Shown here: positions 3,001 to 27,080 of the stretch, one piece after another
How the letters are laid out: each line of letters starts with the position of its first letter
Position numbering within the stretch: position 1 is the first letter of the stretch
DNA from: Natronomonas gomsonensis
GTDB taxonomy: Archaea > Halobacteriota > Halobacteria > Halobacteriales > Haloarculaceae
Length of the DNA: 64,000 nucleotides
Direction of reading: 5' to 3'
Assembly (NCBI RefSeq): GCF_024300825.1
Contig: NZ_CP101323.1
Location: 2,976,001 to 3,040,000, forward strand
Program-made: the position numbers and the translations under genes
Notes under the pieces: generated by a model
What the model was told of the DNA's origin: nothing
What the model saw: the letters and a program-made list of their open reading frames with translations, nothing else
Databases searched by the model: none

Positions 3001-4556
3001 TCGCCGGTGCCGAACAGCCGACGAACGGTCCCGTCGGGGGCCACCCGCTGGACGACTTCTGTTGAGAGGTCGGCCACGAGAAGGTTCCCGACCTCGTCGA
3101 CGGCGAGATCACAGATGTGCCCGAACCCCGCGTCTCTGGCCTCGGTCCCGTCGACTGCGGGCGAGGAGACGGTGTCGTCTATGTCGCCGGTGACCAGTCG
3201 GAGAACCCCGTCGGATTCGACGCTCAAGACGTTGTAGTAGGCACCGATCCCGTCGGTGTCGTTGGCGACGTACACCGTTCCCTCGCCGTCGACGGCCAGG
3301 CTATCGATGTTCTGAAACTCCACGTCGGTCGGAGCAGTGTCGAAGGTCCCGTCGTTTTTCGGCCCGATGGAAACGTTCAGACTCGAATCGACCGGGGCAC
3401 CGGCGACGGGTTCGATCTTGCCGTTCTGGGTAACCCGGCGGACGGCCTGTCCCTCGTATCCGTCGAACCCGTCGAACGCATCGACGAAGTAGACGCTCCC
3501 CTCGGGGCCGACCCCGACATCTATCGGACGGATCGCCGTCTCGGTCGCCTCACCCATGTCCTCGTTCGCTCCGATGTCGTTGAAGTTCAGGTCGCTGTTG
3601 GTCGGCTTGGTTCCGTCGCCCGCGATACGCGTGACCGATCCGCTGTCGGGGTCGATGCGAAACACCGCGTAGGCCGCCGGATCGGCGGCGTATATCGACC
3701 CGGACGGGCCCACGGCGATCCGTCGGATCTCCTCTATCGGGTCGCGGCTGTCGACGACTGTCGAGACGAACGAACTGTCCTCGGTGACCGTGGTCGAGGG
3801 GTCGGTCGTCTTCTCGAGCGCGTAGGTCCGATCGACCGCGAACACCGTACTGAAGTCGCCGATGTACAGTGTCCCGTCCGGCCCGAACGCCATCGAATCC
3901 CTGTTGAAGCCGCTGGCGATTTCCGGCGCCGCGTCCGAGAACACGTTCTCGACGACACCACTCACTCCCCCCTGTCCCTGCTCGTCGACCCAGACCGGGT
4001 CGCGCTGGAGGGTCGCCGTCCAGCCGCCGAACCCGAGCTCCGTGGGTCGATCGTAGCGGAGTTCCACCTGATAGGTCCGCCAGACCGTTATCGGCTCGCG
4101 GCCCTCTCCGTAGGTCACTTCGAGCGACCCTCGTCGCCCGAAGCTTTGACGCAGACCTTCTCCCGCACCACCACCGCCCCCTGGTTGAACGCCAGCAGGG
4201 GTGGGATCCGAGTACACGGGCGTGTACTGGGCCCCGACGCGAACGGTCGCCCACTCCGATCCCTGAACCGGACGCCCCTGTCCGTCCTCGCCGTTCCACT
4301 GGAAGATGTAGGAGCGTTCGGTCGAATCCAACTCGACCTCGTGGTGTTGTCCGGCGACGTCTATCTGCACGACGTGGCCGAGCAGCCCTGACGATAACGG
4401 GTTCAGACCGACGTCGATCGTCGCGTCACGGATGTTGCCTTGCTGTCGCATGCTCCGGTATTCGAGATTCAGGTCGGTACCGGGAATGCGGAGCCTCGCG
4501 TTCGTCGCTAGATTCTGTGCGTCCGTCGAAACCGATAGTGGGGTGTTCCTCGTCAT
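1..4556 (-). CDS. Giant RHS/YD-repeat protein with NHL-type propeller, C-terminus beyond window
   Basis: Open reading frame of about 1518 visible codons on the minus strand; it begins at ATG 4556 and runs off the left edge. Residues 1-120 are an RHS-type N-terminal segment without signal peptide. About 200-560 are NHL-like repeats (motifs such as DGTLYIGD, GSIYAADP, GTVYVAND) expected to form a beta-propeller. About 590-1400 are many YD repeats (YDANGNRVSR, YDEAGRLAGR), and about 1418-1460 the conserved RHS core (GLVRFGLRDYEPETGRF, then DPVNALDRSGL). After the core a new sequence starts, as in polymorphic toxins where the variable C-terminus is the effector; it is cut by the window, so the effector is unknown. 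Only 11 nt separate it from the lipoprotein gene ahead, and the two probably form one functional protein. Confidence 0.9.
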   Translation of the reverse strand, partial: MTRNTPLSVSTDAQNLATNARLRIPGTDLNLEYRSMRQQGNIRDATIDVGLNPLSSGLLGHVVQIDVAGQHHEVELDSTERSYIFQWNGEDGQGRPVQGSEWATVRVGAQYTPVYSDPTPAGVQPGGGGGAGEGLRQSFGRRGSLEVTYGEGREPITVWRTYQVELRYDRPTELGFGGWTATLQRDPVWVDEQGQGGVSGVVENVFSDAAPEIASGFNRDSMAFGPDGTLYIGDFSTVFAVDRTYALEKTTDPSTTVTEDSSFVSTVVDSRDPIEEIRRIAVGPSGSIYAADPAAYAVFRIDPDSGSVTRIAGDGTKPTNSDLNFNDIGANEDMGEATETAIRPIDVGVGPEGSVYFVDAFDGFDGYEGQAVRRVTQNGKIEPVAGAPVDSSLNVSIGPKNDGTFDTAPTDVEFQNIDSLAVDGEGTVYVANDTDGIGAYYNVLSVESDGVLRLVTGDIDDTVSSPAVDGTEARDAGFGHICDLAVDEVGNLLVADLSTEVVQRVAPDGTVRRLFGTGDSQDDPLESGDPAAGGFGQLDDTDVAVAPDGTFVLTTTGDLGALARVRFAVDDSGLFPNPDGRIAARIPERHEETVNTLTGGTLWDLGYDDEGRVEAFVDAYGNETTVERTADGRLAAIESPTGQRTTFETDANGYLSTVTLPDGRQIALDFTELGLLTRAEDPADNENTFSYGKAGRLTDRTDPTGATTSFVRSTISDGARIKRISPEMREVTHTSEWDDGDRLFTTECCGGTSSSTRLTTGEQWKVTRRDGGSRTLSQGPDPRFGMAAPVTEKAVEVSPSGRETVTKTDRTVSLADDSDSLSLDSLTETVTINGRTFDRTFEAATNEYSITTPEGRSTVLTLDDNGDVSELSADGVDPVSIERNGNGRISERKQAGTVFKFEYDTNGYLEAAEDETGRRVEFDRDVLGRIQTATTAAGSADAATEAFEYDDAGNLTEFERPNGDVHRFSHDAAGRLTGYEPPELPDGEGVSMSYDGDGLLTDLDPASGRTMTNSYDTGGRRTGTTPGASGSGLPSVSYDWNAAGRVDTLTWSPDGGTDQTVSFDRDGMATTGLEYGGAVSGRFEYSHDDDGFVTGITFPEDVGSSQTHSLSHDDDGLTTEYGPFTLTRDGPDGAPTTITDGTLTITITYDSRGRVDTRTHEVGGTAIYAADYTYDDAGRIETRTETVDGSQLTTETFSYDEAGRLAGRTLGHGPDESYDYDANGNRVSRTLGPATLDATYRTGDRLKACEKESSGSRTTVAYSYDKDGFLSGRGSDTFSYSPKGHLLTATPNGGSTVTYTNDAHGRLIGRTVSGNTTEYLYGDPNRPWQLTVARDPDGTRTRYYYDPSGRLIAFDRDGTWHYVATDQAGSPRVVAATDGTVEKEIVRDSFGAVQNDSAPGFRLHVGFGGGVRDPDTGLVRFGLRDYEPETGRFTARDPILQAGGQYNFYAYAHSDPVNALDRSGLSCYWEDVNEDYNMTMDNISPVRNAIDEISGDVTAPQGNTEETLKNGAKTALKE

Positions 4557-4567
4557 CGTTGTCACTC

Positions 4568-6514
4568 TCAGCAGGGGTCCGGATCCTCGGGTTCGTCACG
4601 CCGCTCCCGTTCCGGTGGGAAAACGGCGCTTTCGGGTGGTCTAACGGGCCAGTTGCAGTCCCACGGCGTGAAATGGGGCAACGGTGTCCGCCACAGTTCG
4701 TCACCCACCTCGTACAGGTCGGCCAGTGTTTCGCGCTCGGCGTCGCCGACGCCCAGATCCGAGAGGGTCTGCTCGTCGGCCGCGGTGTCGCTCCCGTCGA
4801 TGTCGAGGTCGGCTTTGCCGTCGGAGATCCCGAGGATCTTCACGACCAGGCCGTTGTTGGAAGGCACCCAGTTCGCCGCATCGGCATCGTAGGACCCGGT
4901 CGGTACGGGTGCTCCCACCGGAAAGTCGAGGAAGTTGTCCAGGTAGAAGACGACGTCCGTGTCGAACTGCAGGTCCCCCGCCGACCCGGAGCCGATGAAC
5001 CCACCGCCGGAGGAACCGCCCGACCCGGATGCCTCCTCGTCGACGAAAAACTCCGATGCGTAGGTGTAGCCGACTTGGCGCGGGAGTCCTCCCGGCATCG
5101 ACTCCGGCCCCAGATCGCCGACGGTGTACTCAGCGGTCCGGACGGTCAACGACTCCGGCGCCGTGCCGTCGGCCGTCCACTGGGCTGCGGTCCCTTCCGG
5201 GACGAAGACGACGGCCGTCCTGGTGCCATCATCGTCCGAGACCTTACCGCTCTCGACAACCTGAGGTTCGTTAGCATCGTTTTCGATTTCGGTCCCCTCG
5301 CCGTCCGGTTCGACCAGCGCGACATCGTCCATAGCCGTCTCCTGGTTCCAGTTCAGATTGACCGAACGCTGGGCAGGGAGGTAGCCGTCCTTCTCGAAGC
5401 GAACCGTCTCGCGCCCGCCGCCGTTGAGCGCCATATCCCACTCGCCATCCTCGCGGGTGTAGGTGTATCCGAACTCCGGTCGGTCTTTAATCGAGACCTT
5501 CACCCCCGACAGTGGCGATCCGTCGCGGTTCAAAACCGTCCCTGTGAGGGTACTCACCCGTTTTCCCTCGATTTTCGCTGGGTCCGCATCTCGCTGAACT
5601 GGTTCGGATCCCTGATAGAGGAACGCAGCGCGGTCGGCGGTCGAACTCGTCGTCGTGAGGTCTGGTTCCGGCGGGTCTGGCTCTCGCAGGTCCGGCTCTG
5701 AGTCACCCGGCGAGGGCGTCGGTGTCGGCGTCTCAGTCGGTGTTTCGGTTGGTGTCGGCGTCTCAGTCGGTGTTTCGGTTGGTGTCGGCGTCTCAGTCGG
5801 GGTCGGTGTTGACGAGTCGTCGCTATCGTCTCCTCCCCCACCACTCCAGCCGCCACCGGCATCCACTTGGTTGCCGTCAGATGACTGGCTCGACGATTCC
5901 TCTGTCGGTGTTGCAGTCGTAGTGTCGGTGGGGCTTGCTGTCTCAGTCGCAGTATCGGTTGGGACTGACGTTTCAGTTGCAGTGTTAGTGGGGCGTGAAG
6001 TCGCAGTCGGGGTATCTGTCTCCTCAGGAGAGGATGTCACACCCGGCGTATCCGTTGCCGTCCCCGGTGTCGCCGTCTCATCACCCCATCCAGGAATGCC
6101 GGAGCAGCCAGCAACAACAGTAGCTAGAGCCGTCGCCGCTGCCGGGACAGCGCGCCGACTCGTGTCGTTCGTTTCAACCACGAGGTCCGGTCCGTCAACT
6201 GCGGCGCGTACCGTGACCTGCTCGGCAGCGAGGAGACGGTGGTCGTCGAAGACGCGGCAATAGACCGTCGAGTCGTCTAACCCCATCGGTACATCCACGC
6301 GAAAGGTGCCGTCAGGACGCGCCGTCGACAGCGCGAGGAGATCCTCCGTTAGCCGGCCGAATAGTCGGTCCGGGAGCGATTCGAGCATCGAAGCGGGGAC
6401 GTGGGCCGGCACTGGGTCCGGAATTCCATCGGCACGCCACACCTCGATTGTCATCGCTCCATTTGCATCCGGGTCCGTCCCGTGTATTACTCCAGCAACC
6501 ACGTCCGATGACAT
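4568..6514 (-). CDS. Threonine/proline-rich Tat-lipobox protein, N-terminal partner of the RHS protein
   Basis: Taken from ATG 6514, giving 648 residues. An N-terminal beta-rich domain of about 110 residues is followed by a twin-arginine signal with lipobox (RRAVP ... VVAGC), a long Thr/Pro/Glu linker, a carboxypeptidase-regulatory-like domain (VLNRDGSPLSGVKVSIKD), and a C-terminal region ending HFTPWDCNWP and DPDPC. The lipobox lies inside the frame; a GTG at 6181 would place it at the extreme N-terminus as a normal exported lipoprotein. The C-terminal half resembles the region preceding the RHS part in bacterial single-chain RHS proteins (from memory of the family). The next gene restarts 11 nt later in another frame, so this may be one ancestral gene split in two. 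The product is likely membrane-anchored and external. Confidence 0.75.
   Translation of the reverse strand: MSSDVVAGVIHGTDPDANGAMTIEVWRADGIPDPVPAHVPASMLESLPDRLFGRLTEDLLALSTARPDGTFRVDVPMGLDDSTVYCRVFDDHRLLAAEQVTVRAAVDGPDLVVETNDTSRRAVPAAATALATVVAGCSGIPGWGDETATPGTATDTPGVTSSPEETDTPTATSRPTNTATETSVPTDTATETASPTDTTTATPTEESSSQSSDGNQVDAGGGWSGGGGDDSDDSSTPTPTETPTPTETPTETPTPTETPTETPTPTPSPGDSEPDLREPDPPEPDLTTTSSTADRAAFLYQGSEPVQRDADPAKIEGKRVSTLTGTVLNRDGSPLSGVKVSIKDRPEFGYTYTREDGEWDMALNGGGRETVRFEKDGYLPAQRSVNLNWNQETAMDDVALVEPDGEGTEIENDANEPQVVESGKVSDDDGTRTAVVFVPEGTAAQWTADGTAPESLTVRTAEYTVGDLGPESMPGGLPRQVGYTYASEFFVDEEASGSGGSSGGGFIGSGSAGDLQFDTDVVFYLDNFLDFPVGAPVPTGSYDADAANWVPSNNGLVVKILGISDGKADLDIDGSDTAADEQTLSDLGVGDAERETLADLYEVGDELWRTPLPHFTPWDCNWPVRPPESAVFPPERERRDEPEDPDPC
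5710..6010 (-). repeat. Low-complexity Thr/Pro/Glu linker repeats
   Basis: Imperfect direct DNA repeats, including two near-identical units of about 33 bp around 5728-5795, encode TPTETPTPTE-type residues. They form the stalk between the lipobox and the folded domains of the lipoprotein. Such linkers are common in haloarchaeal surface proteins and probably vary in length by slippage. Confidence 0.8.
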
Positions 6515-14165: not shown

Positions 14166-14529
14166 TGGTCTCAGGGTTCTCCGTATGCTGTTTGATTTTG
14201 GAATCTGAGTGGGCGGGTTTTGGCATGTTCAGCCAATCTTTCGGAATTTATATAATTCTGTTGTTGGTGCAGTCTCTATTCAGACTGCTAACTCAACAAC
14301 AAAAAGGGCGAAATTCCATAAACTATAAATTACTATATCTAATTTGCTCCGGTCTGGTTGATCCTCCGAGGTTGTAGCCCACCCGACGCAAGTCGGATGT
14401 GTGTAAGGTTGTGCCAACAAATATTACTCAATAGTGAAACGAAGAGGTAACGTTAAGCCACTTCGTGTTAGGACTTAACATACCGCTCTCGGATGAGTGG
14501 CACACGGAGCGGTACACCACGGAACAGGC
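14166..14529. other. Intergenic region, AT-rich, with a small GNRA hairpin
   Basis: No gene is visible. The left part, between the recombinase start and about 14340, is AT-rich and would hold its promoter. At 14382-14396 a CCGAC-GCAA-GTCGG hairpin with a GNRA tetraloop could belong to a small RNA or a terminator. At 14452-14479 the arms GTTAAG and CTTAAC flank the region just ahead of the next gene. Confidence 0.4.
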
Positions 14530-15297
14530 ATGACCACTGCATGTGAGATACTCGACCGGGCAGTAGAATGTATCGAAGAAGAAACACAGAGCCTCCAGCG
14601 GGAGCGTCAGGCCTTCGAGACCTTTCGAAAATCGGTCAGCAGAGCCCAACCGGCCACGGGCGACGGTGGAACACAGACTGGAAGCCTACTCGAAATATAC
14701 CAAGAGACGGTAATGTCGACACCTGATTTCGAGGTAGCCTACGACGAACCAGTTTCTGAAAGCCTCAAATCCGAACTCTCTCCGTCCATAGCCGAAACAC
14801 TCCAGCAAAACGAACCGATAACACAACACTTCAAACGCAATTTACTTCTCGCGACGACCGAAGCTATCGAATCGCGAGTCCGGTTTATTCGGGTGTTGGA
14901 GGCAGAACAGGAGTCGATTCGAGCTGTTTTGAAGACGGTACTGGAGATTGAGGACACCCTTCAGGAACTGCCAGTCTGCACGTTACGATGTCTTCAGTTC
15001 GAACAGTTCGTTGACGTCTGGGAGGCCTGTGAAGAGACTGTCGAGCGATGCGACCAACGTTCCGAACAGCGGCAACGCCATATCAACGAGCGGCGGAGTA
15101 AAAACGAGCACGCGAATGTCGGAGCACATGCCCTCAACGCCTACCTCTACAGCGACCTCAAAACCCAATTTCCAGCGTTGCGTGCCCTATCTGAAAAAAG
15201 ACAAGAAATTGAACAATATCGTGGAGAAGCGACCAAACCAGTCAGTCACACGCGGGAAGATAACTGTGACAGTGGTCTCGAGGCGACATCAAATTGA
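14530..15297 (+). CDS. DUF7260-type haloarchaeal protein
   Basis: 255 residues from ATG 14530. The N-terminus (ILDRAVECIEEETQSLQRER then QAFETFRKSV) is the hallmark of this haloarchaeal family: a leading helix with Glu/Arg-rich heptads. The remainder is helical, with a long central coiled coil and a Cys-containing helix (LPVCTLRCLQ). No enzymatic motif or membrane segment is visible. The function is unknown; such genes are multicopy and often lie in accessory regions, as here between a recombinase and decayed genes. Confidence 0.7.
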   Translation: MTTACEILDRAVECIEEETQSLQRERQAFETFRKSVSRAQPATGDGGTQTGSLLEIYQETVMSTPDFEVAYDEPVSESLKSELSPSIAETLQQNEPITQHFKRNLLLATTEAIESRVRFIRVLEAEQESIRAVLKTVLEIEDTLQELPVCTLRCLQFEQFVDVWEACEETVERCDQRSEQRQRHINERRSKNEHANVGAHALNAYLYSDLKTQFPALRALSEKRQEIEQYRGEATKPVSHTREDNCDSGLEATSN

Positions 15298-15321: not shown

Positions 15322-15702
15322 CTATCGTTCACGGGCATTCTTGCGGACGGGCTCGATGATATCCTGCATCGACGAGCTTGGACCAAATATCTCGACGACG
15401 CCGAGATCGCGGAGCCCCTCGCAATCATTGTCGGAGATGATCCCCTAGCTAACACCAGAGTGTGCTTGAAGGCCTCGTGCTCTTTTCAGGCCGTCGAAAT
15501 CGTGACTTGAACGATATTGCTCAGCGGCTGTTGGGCTGTCAGCGACTGCCTCGCCGTCTAGGTGTGGAAGTTCAGGCGCTTGGATCCGGCGGCATCGGAG
15601 CCGTGTGCTGTGTTATTTTATTGCGCACGCGTGGATAATGTGGTTGTGGGAGTTGAAAAAGAAGGAGATCAGTGGCGCGACTTCAACGATATCTCGCCGA
15701 AG
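15322..15702 (-). pseudogene. Decayed methylmalonyl-CoA mutase-type gene
   Basis: Three pieces of a coenzyme-B12 mutase lie in family order on the minus strand. At 15620-15702: ISFFFNSHNHIIHACA (compare [16 protein letters not shown] in the intact mcmA of this window). At 15480-15584: SKRLNFHT and SLTAQQPLSNIVQVT, with in-frame stops (compare SKQLKFHT and [15 protein letters not shown]). At 15322-15444: GVVEIFGPSSSMQDII and the C-terminus ending at TAG 15322-15324 (compare GVSEVFGPGASMAETI at the end of mcmB). Stops and large internal deletions make it inactive. The catalytic and B12-binding parts lie on one track, so the ancestor may have been a fused mutase. Confidence 0.75.
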
Positions 15703-16040
15703 GGATGTTAGTGACTCGTCCGAACTGTTCCGGCTTAAATTTCGTCCAGAGGTAGTCGATCGTGTTTGCAGATGTCGAGTCTTCGCTAGGTTGTACAGAG
15801 TAGAAATTGAGGTCTCGTCGGCGGTTGTACCGACGAAAAGATCTCTTCGACATTGATTTCAGCGTTGGCGGTGAGGTTAAATAAATCACCACATCAAACC
15901 GCTTGGCGAGGGAATTAACGAGCCGGACCTTGTGGATCTCACTGTCTGTTTATGGTTTAAACGGCACTGGTGAATCGCTAGAAAGCATCGGCTCCGACCG
16001 TCAGAACTAGTGGAATGAAGCGGGAAACCGCCGATGGTCC

Positions 16041-16799
16041 ATGTCTAAGATTTCCTGCTTCACGAGCAAAGCGGTTCAGTTAGCTAAAATGCCGTCGGTG
16101 GCCGAGACGAAGTCGCCGCCCCCGAAGGAAATGGTGGCTTCGCCGACTATGCGGTTGTGTAGCTGCACTCTCTGCGGGTTTACTTGGAGAAATCCTACCG
16201 AGAAGCGCTGGATTTTCTGAGCGAGATGCCACATATTCTCGGAGAGATCGGCCTCAAACCGGCCGATCTCCCGGATCACTCAACGTTAGTAAAGTGGTTT
16301 GACAGGATCAAGACAGCACTCTGACGAGTGCTGCTGCGCCGACAGGCGCAGCTGCACGAGCCAAGTGGTCACGCTGCCATCGATGCGACGTTCTTTGACC
16401 GCGAAAATGCAAGCAAACACTACTGTCACCGGACGAATTATCGCGTCCAGACGCTCAAAGCGACAGCTCTCGTCGACACAGAACCGCAAGTGATTCTAGA
16501 CGTTCACTGCACGACCGAGAAACGCCATGATACACAACTCGGCTGGCAACTCGGGCGAGATTGCCAGCCCCGCTGCCGACAAAGGCTATGACTGGATGAG
16601 TTACGCGAAAAAGGTGTGAGACCGCTGATCAAACACCGGACAACGACGCGCTGGAAGAAGTTGGTCAAATAGGTGGAGATCAAACTGGCGGTAATGGGAT
16701 GGCCGAGTTGCCCGACGACATCCCGATGCCGTACGACCATCTCTCTGAAGAGGAGTATTTTGTTGAAGAGAATTCACCCCTATGACGGTATGATGCAAG
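16041..16799 (+). pseudogene. IS5-family transposase remnant (ISH type)
   Basis: ATG 16041 begins MSKISCFTSKAVQLAK, typical of haloarchaeal IS5-type transposases. Homology resumes in other frames: SLHSLRVYLEKSYREALDFL, then HSTLVKWFDRIKTAL, a TGA at 16322 replacing Trp, then AAIDATFFDRENASKHYC with the catalytic Asp, and AADKGYDWMSYAKK. Several frameshifts, stops and a shortened 3' part show it is dead. No intact terminal repeats were found. Confidence 0.8.
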
Positions 16800-22818: not shown

Positions 22819-24483
22819 TTAGTACTCGCCGAAGACGTCGCGCATCGCGTTACAGATTTCGCCGGTCGTCGCGTAGGCCTTCACCGCGTCGACGATGTAG
22901 GGCATGACGTTTTCGTCACCTTCGGCGGCCGCTTTGAGGTCGGCGAGAGCATCGTCGACGGCCGCCTGGTCGCGGTCGTCGCGAATCGCCTGGACGCGTT
23001 CTTTCTGTTGTTGTTGTTCCTCCTCGGAGACCTCCTCGATGTCCTCTTTGGGGTCCTCGTCGACCTGATACTCGTTGACGCCGACGATGATTCGCTCGCC
23101 CGTCTCGATTTCCCGTTGGCGCTCGAAAGCGACGTCCTGAATCTCCCCTTGGACCCACCCGCTTTCGACGGCCTGCCGCATCCCGCCGCGGTCGTCGATG
23201 TCGTCGAGGATGTCGAAGGCCTCGTTTTCGAGTTCGTCGGTCAGCGATTCGACGTAATAACTGCCCGCAAGCGGGTCGATGGTGTCGGCGGCGCCGGACT
23301 CGTGGGCGAGGATTTGCTGGGTTCGCAGGGCGGTGCGGACGGATTTCTCGGTCGGCAGACTGAGCGCCTCGTCTTTGCCGTTGGTGTGGAGGCTCTGGGT
23401 GCCACCCAACACGGCGGCGAGTGCCTGATAGGCCACGCGGACGACGTTGTTCTCGACCTGCTGGGCGGTCAGCGTCGATCCGGCGGTCTGGGTATGGAAC
23501 TTCAACTGCTTGGAGGCGGGTTTCTCGGCGTCGAAGCGTTCCTCCATGATTCGGTACCACATCCGGCGTGCGGCCCGGAACTTCGCGACTTCCTCTAAGA
23601 TGTTATTGTGGGCATTGAAGAAGAAGGAGAGCTGGGGGGCGAACTCGTCGACGCCGAGGCCGGCGTCGATGGCGGCTTCGACGTATTCAACGCCGTCGGC
23701 GAGCGTGAAGGCGATTTCCTGTGCGGCGGTCGCGCCGGCCTCGCGGATGTGATATCCCGAAATCGAGATGGTGTTGAAACTCGGGACCTCCTCGGCGCAG
23801 AACTCGAAGATGTCCGTGATGATGCGCATCGAGGGCTCCGGCGGGAAGATGTAGGTGTTGCGGGCGATGTACTCCTTGAGGATGTCGTTTTGGATGGTCC
23901 CCCGCAACTCCTCGCGGTCGACGCCCTGTCGGTCGCCGACGGCGATGTACATCGCCAGCAGCACCGACGCGGGGGCGTTAATGGTCATCGAGGTCGAGAC
24001 TTCGTCCAGCGGGATGCCCTCGAAGACGGTCTCCATGTCGTCGAGAGAGTCGATGGCGACGCCGCTTTTGCCGACCTCGCCTTCGGCCATCTCGCTGTCG
24101 GAGTCGTAGCCCATCTGGGTCGGCAAATCGAAGGCCATAGAGAGGCCGGTTTGGCCCTCGTCCATCAGGTAGTTGAATCGCTCGTTGGTCTCGCTGGCGG
24201 TGCCCATGCCGGCGTACTGCCGCATCGTCCACAGTCGGCCGCGGTGCATCGTCGAGTAGACGCCGCGGGTGTACGGCGACTCGCCGGGGAAGCCGATGTC
24301 CTCATCGTAGTCGATGTCGGCGATGTCGGCGGGGGTGTAGAGGGGGTCGACCTCCTGGCCGCCGGTGTCGGTCGTGAACTGCTCTTTGCGCTCCCCGAAG
24401 CGCTCGACGGTGGGGCCAAAGGTGTCCTCGGTCCAGTCCTCGTGGCCCTCGCGGATGGCTTCGAGGTCGTCGGGGTCGAACAT
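22819..24483 (-). CDS. mcmA: Methylmalonyl-CoA mutase, catalytic subunit
   Basis: 554 residues, the size of archaeal large subunits lacking the B12 domain. Signatures: [76 protein letters not shown] and [14 protein letters not shown]. It isomerises (R)-methylmalonyl-CoA to succinyl-CoA with adenosylcobalamin carried by the separate mcmB subunit, 2 kb upstream on the same strand. pccA lies between them, so mutase and carboxylase are cotranscribed or co-regulated. Acidic, GC-rich coding sequence indicates a long-resident core gene. Confidence 0.95.
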
Positions 24484-26480: not shown

Positions 26481-26891
26481 TTACCGCTCAGGTGCATTGT
26501 CGCGGATAAAGTCAATCGTCTCTGCCATAGAGGCCCCCGGCCCAAAGACCTCCGAAACGCCCAAATTCAGAAGGTCAGCTCGGTCTTCCTCAGGAATGAT
26601 ACCACCGACCAGCACGAGGGTGTCGTCAAACGCCTCGTAGGCTTTGAGCCCATCAATCACCTTCGGGACGAGCGTGTTGTGCGCCCCCGAGAGGATAGAG
26701 ATTCCAACGACGTCAACGTCTTCTTGGACAGCTGCCTGCACGAGTTCGTCCGGCGTCTTGTGTAGTCCCGAGTAGATAACCTCGAAGCCGGCGTCACGGA
26801 AGGCACGCGAGATGACGTGTGCACCACGATCATGTCCATCAAGCCCGACTTTCGCTACCAAACACCGAATAGAACGGCTTTCATCCGACAT
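26481..26891 (-). CDS. mcmB: Methylmalonyl-CoA mutase, cobalamin-binding subunit
   Basis: 136 residues from ATG 26891 (MSDESRSIRCLVAKVGLDGH); earlier in-frame starts would add an unconserved leader. The B12 motif DxHxxG appears as LDGHDRGAHVI, followed by SGLHKTPDELV, VGISILSGAHN and VGGIIPEEDRADLLNLG, ending in the conserved FGPGASMAETIDFI. It carries adenosylcobalamin base-off with the His as ligand. The gene is separate from the catalytic subunit, as in most archaea. A decayed copy of the same domain lies at 15322-15444. Confidence 0.94.
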   Translation of the reverse strand: MSDESRSIRCLVAKVGLDGHDRGAHVISRAFRDAGFEVIYSGLHKTPDELVQAAVQEDVDVVGISILSGAHNTLVPKVIDGLKAYEAFDDTLVLVGGIIPEEDRADLLNLGVSEVFGPGASMAETIDFIRDNAPER

Positions 26892-27080
26892 GGTATGCAA
26901 TAGAGGATCTGTCCAATATCTGGTGGTATGTGTTATAAACGTCCATAACTGTTGTTCGTGGGGCATGCGACTTTATAGCGTCGATACCGACGCTGTATGC
27001 CGAACGCTGCGATAGGACGCCGGCCAGAATACATTGAATTTGCTACAGAGCGAGAGACCCCATACCGTGAACCGGGCGAC

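Follow-up and report, generated by a model that had tools for sequence, protein, structure and literature searches.

What kind of enzyme left the mutase-like fragments that lie at 15693-15322 on the minus strand of the 64,000-nucleotide stretch of Natronomonas gomsonensis DNA analysed here (the window), and was it made as one chain or as two? We consider them to be, very probably, the non-functional remnant of an extra copy of an adjacent, separately encoded pair of genes for a mutase of the isobutyryl-CoA/2-hydroxyisobutyryl-CoA type. The relic consists of an mcmA-like part (15693-15498), matching the middle of the gene for the large subunit of B12-dependent acyl-CoA mutases, which directly abuts an mcmB-like part (15497-15322) derived from the gene for the B12-binding subunit. 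The order given in the original prediction, a catalytic and then a B12-binding fragment on the minus strand, thus holds.

Are these matches real? Some observations would suit a chance similarity in noncoding DNA: the matches are short and interrupted, PF02310 of Pfam gives no match to the translated B piece, and the locus is absent from the whole-genome results for both PF01642 and PF02310. The whole-genome profiles missed the relic because its pieces are too short and frameshifted, so that a search at the DNA level was needed. Across 60 related genomes, this search aligned the second block of the mcmA part to an intact gene of a sister genome at 84% identity over 107 bases (E 2e-26), and the mcmB part to an intact gene at 75% identity over 177 bases (E about 3e-24). 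In local alignment the two parts score 164 (mcmA) and 152 (mcmB), whereas none of 300 dinucleotide shuffles exceeded 44 and 50, respectively. Among the NCBIfam profiles, TIGR00641 matches 29 amino acids of the translated mcmA piece (E 4.6e-4) and TIGR00640 matches 40 amino acids of the mcmB piece (E 2.7e-6), and PF01642 of Pfam detects the mcmA peptide (E 1.9e-4). With per-genome E-values of 1e-24 to 1e-26 and no shuffle near the observed scores, chance similarity is refuted and retains a negligible probability; the original prediction had named matches no better than chance as the result that would overturn it, and its matches to both the catalytic and the B12-binding part prove genuine.

The state of the fragments is that of a decayed gene. 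Block 1 of the mcmA remnant (15632-15693, minus strand) reads DIVEVAPLISFFFNSHNHII where the intact protein has EIDEFAPLLSFFFNSHNSIF. It is followed by a poorly aligned stretch (15606-15631), in which the best alignment places an in-frame stop and the net loss of 32 bases that separates the mcmA part from its closest intact genes, and then by block 2 (15498-15605), which reads HGSDAAGSKRLNFHT*TARQSLTAQQPLSNIVQVTI, the stop having arisen by a change of CAG to TAG (FHT*TA). At the junction (15497-15498), mcmA codon 349 is joined to nucleotide 248 of mcmB, the second base of codon 83, which puts the two genes out of frame with each other. The mcmB remnant (15322-15497) retains codons 83-140, the last 58, together with the gene's own stop, and carries one +1 and one -1 frameshift, with a stop after the second. 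Stops and deletions among the fragments had been predicted and are present as in-frame stops, small indels and the 32-base loss. The two parts had also been described as lying on one track, which is correct for strand and order but fails for reading frame: block 1 of mcmA and the B12 tail share a raw frame, and block 2 lies in another.

Divergence by codon position fits a gene formerly under selection and then left to drift. At first and second positions, 10-17% of sites differ in the relic, where intact copies differ from one another at about 3-4%; the sample is small, and the third positions are also highly diverged. The locus thus combines significant similarity to a gene family with the loss of an open frame and with constraint relaxed relative to intact copies, as a pseudogene does, and it is best explained as non-functional, making no enzyme.

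To which mutase did it belong? The original prediction spoke of methylmalonyl-CoA mutase; a coenzyme-B12 acyl-CoA mutase it was, but the tree and the sequence identities place it in the isobutyryl-CoA/2-hydroxyisobutyryl-CoA subfamily. The A fragment falls within a Natronomonas clade of isobutyryl-CoA type (support 0.999), apart from the nearby methylmalonyl-type A, and groups with the A gene of a pair that Natronomonas sp. CBA1123 retains intact (0.95). With some 370 bases left to compare, the tree has little power here, and the three A leaves of the sister clade are pieces of a single gene. The B fragment lies inside the Natronomonas mcmB clade (0.91-0.99), without finer resolution. The relic residues SKRLxFHT..QSLTAQQPLxNIV accord with the large subunit of the split isobutyryl-CoA/2-hydroxyisobutyryl-CoA type. 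A Tyr/Arg pair at the substrate site separates methylmalonyl-CoA mutases from isobutyryl-type enzymes, which have Phe/Gln. The region concerned (Phe/Ile and Gln versus Tyr and Arg) is missing from the relic and present in its intact relatives; in the aligned motifs RQ(F/Y)AGF and (AQKEW/VRNTY), the Tyr and Arg of methylmalonyl-CoA mutases are replaced by Phe and Gln in the intact A protein. Its best-scoring solved homologue is the large subunit of 2-hydroxyisobutyryl-CoA mutase HcmA/HcmB (PDB 4r3u), at 621 bits versus 487 for human methylmalonyl-CoA mutase. The large and small subunits of HcmA/HcmB are separate proteins; at the substrate positions HcmA has Ile and Asp, whereas the haloarchaeal A protein has Phe and Ala. 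A literature search returned nothing specific on haloarchaeal isobutyryl-CoA mutases.

Other mutase genes of the same genome provide context. The intact mcmA/mcmB set that had been noted nearby is indeed there, with an mcmA of methylmalonyl-CoA type at 22819-24483 and an mcmB at 26481-26966, 7 kb or more from the relic. We considered whether the relic could be a decayed copy of this mcmA and rejected the idea on the tree and on an identity of 62% over the relic columns. The mcmA at 22819-24483 and a second methylmalonyl-type mcmA at 1615 kb share about 97% DNA identity (1632 of 1677 columns), which suggests a recent duplication or conversion. Elsewhere, the genome encodes one intact isobutyryl-type A at 1393 kb and an mcmB-meaB operon at 1334 kb.

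The mcmA part has its nearest relative in an intact pair on contig 23 of a genome that we take to be that of CBA1123, whose named record yields identical matches at identical contig coordinates. There mcmA (3522-5351, its stop ending at 5351) and mcmB (5348-5770, its start at 5348) are separate genes that overlap by 4 bases. Acyl-CoA ligase and MaoC-like genes flank the pair on one side and an acyl-CoA dehydrogenase gene on the other, and a convergent DUF7260 gene lies downstream. Gene order, strand, subfamily residues and the convergent DUF7260 gene are all shared with the relic, which is 84% identical in DNA to this pair in mcmA block 2 and 72% in the B part. Unlike the relic, the pair is intact, has the dehydrogenase gene between mcmB and DUF7260, and sits in another chromosomal place; the relic locus lacks the remaining genes of the CBA1123 operon (ligase, dehydratases and acyl-CoA dehydrogenase).

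Taking out about 891 bases around the point where A meets B in the CBA1123 pair reproduces the junction seen in the window, from which a course of events may be proposed. The ancestral locus would have carried a gene for the large catalytic subunit followed by one for the small B12-binding subunit, an extra copy such as CBA1123 keeps intact. Once the pair had lost its use, a deletion of about 891 bases would have removed its A-B boundary, the large-subunit gene would have lost its 5' part beside inserted insertion-sequence (IS) elements, and what remained would have drifted.

Must both halves come from one locus? The B fragment is slightly closer to the mcmB genes of mcmB-meaB operons (75%) than to that of the CBA1123 pair (72%), so the two halves need not derive from exactly that pair, and one can imagine fragments of an mcmA gene and of an mcmB-meaB operon, unrelated in source, being joined by rearrangement. 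The surroundings of a second DUF7260 gene can be read in the same way. Next to the relic, a convergent DUF7260 (PF23921) gene on the plus strand (14497-15297) ends 24 bases from the mcmB remnant; at 3053 kb (3052440-3053363), about 62 kb from the relic, the same 24-base spacer separates a further DUF7260 gene from a degraded stretch of mcmB tail, about 50 bases long and matching the relic at 86% identity. No mcmA was detected at this locus, which adjoins pntA and panB. Against a double origin, nothing intervenes between A and B in the relic, and the two run on one strand in the order that known A-B pairs have. A single deletion is the simplest account of this arrangement; we regard two sources as improbable.

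Still less probable, in our estimate, is the ancestor favoured by the original prediction, a single-chain fused mutase of which the relic would be an internally deleted copy. Its appeal is that the catalytic and B12 parts share a strand and follow each other from N to C as in fused enzymes such as the methylmalonyl-CoA mutases of model NF006944 and human MUT, which contain the same domains in one polypeptide. That form was not found in the order: none of 195 genomes passes the cut-off of NF006944, which 4 of 14 control genomes pass, and the sole apparent fused mutase resolved into two open reading frames separated by a TGA. All 12 distinct A-then-B neighbouring pairs in haloarchaea (the CBA1123 pair counted, duplicate loci and that apparent fusion left out) are separated by a stop, the nearest intact relative of the relic among them, and the relic B part has 72-75% DNA identity to free-standing Natronomonas mcmB genes. 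Both domains in one continuous frame would define a fused acyl-CoA mutase; here the junction is out of frame and the relatives are split. The inference of a fused ancestor is therefore not supported, and finding the catalytic and B12 parts on a shared strand need not mean that the enzyme was fused.

The recurrence of the DUF7260-mcmB-tail sequence at two loci means that this junction has been copied at least once. Among 293 genomes of the order, it occurs only in the genome of the window, and a third DUF7260 copy, at 2934 kb, has no detected mutase remnant beside it. A block of NAD(P) transhydrogenase and DUF7260 genes is present twice, at 2930.8-2934.9 kb and 3049.1-3053.2 kb, about 118 kb apart. 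A small cassette, in which the DUF7260 gene would be moved or copied along with the dead mcmB tail, seems to us conceivable but unlikely; one of the two junctions lies inside the duplicated block, and on this reading DUF7260 genes might be part of a mobile or recombining unit not yet described.

Insertion sequences border the other end of the relic. One transposase gene of an IS is represented by a remnant of its 5' part (15682-15951, minus strand), truncated where the mcmA remnant starts, the boundaries overlapping by 12 bases; this remnant has 70-73% DNA identity to sequences in three genomes, and a related transposase open reading frame of 389 amino acids gives a weak DDE_Tnp_1 match. Beyond it lies a remnant of an IS5-like (DDE_Tnp_1) element (15957-16638, plus strand), 76-83% identical in DNA to multi-copy elements, whose transposase relatives read on the plus strand of the window and of which an intact copy matches PF01609 (E 2e-25). 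Both remnants are upstream of the relic in the minus-strand sense, and the relic thus sits among at least two insertion-sequence remnants. A repeated fragment (16642-16786) abuts the IS5-like remnant and has 82-84% matches in CBA1123 contig 13. The cofG-cofH genes adjoining the region are 92% identical in CBA1123, where the relic region was not found beside them.

The importance of this relic is mainly corrective, with respect to the fused-enzyme reading. It also indicates that a haloarchaeal lineage once had, and then lost, an extra isobutyryl-CoA-type mutase pair, such as a sister species still keeps. Haloarchaea have a described class of disrupted genes (PMC4500146), left behind by transposons, by frameshifts and by deletions that are large or form chimeras. 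The relic shows the same kinds of lesion as those disrupted genes, with nothing essential to set it apart: it is an ordinary haloarchaeal pseudogene, a case of gene decay in an IS-rich accessory region.
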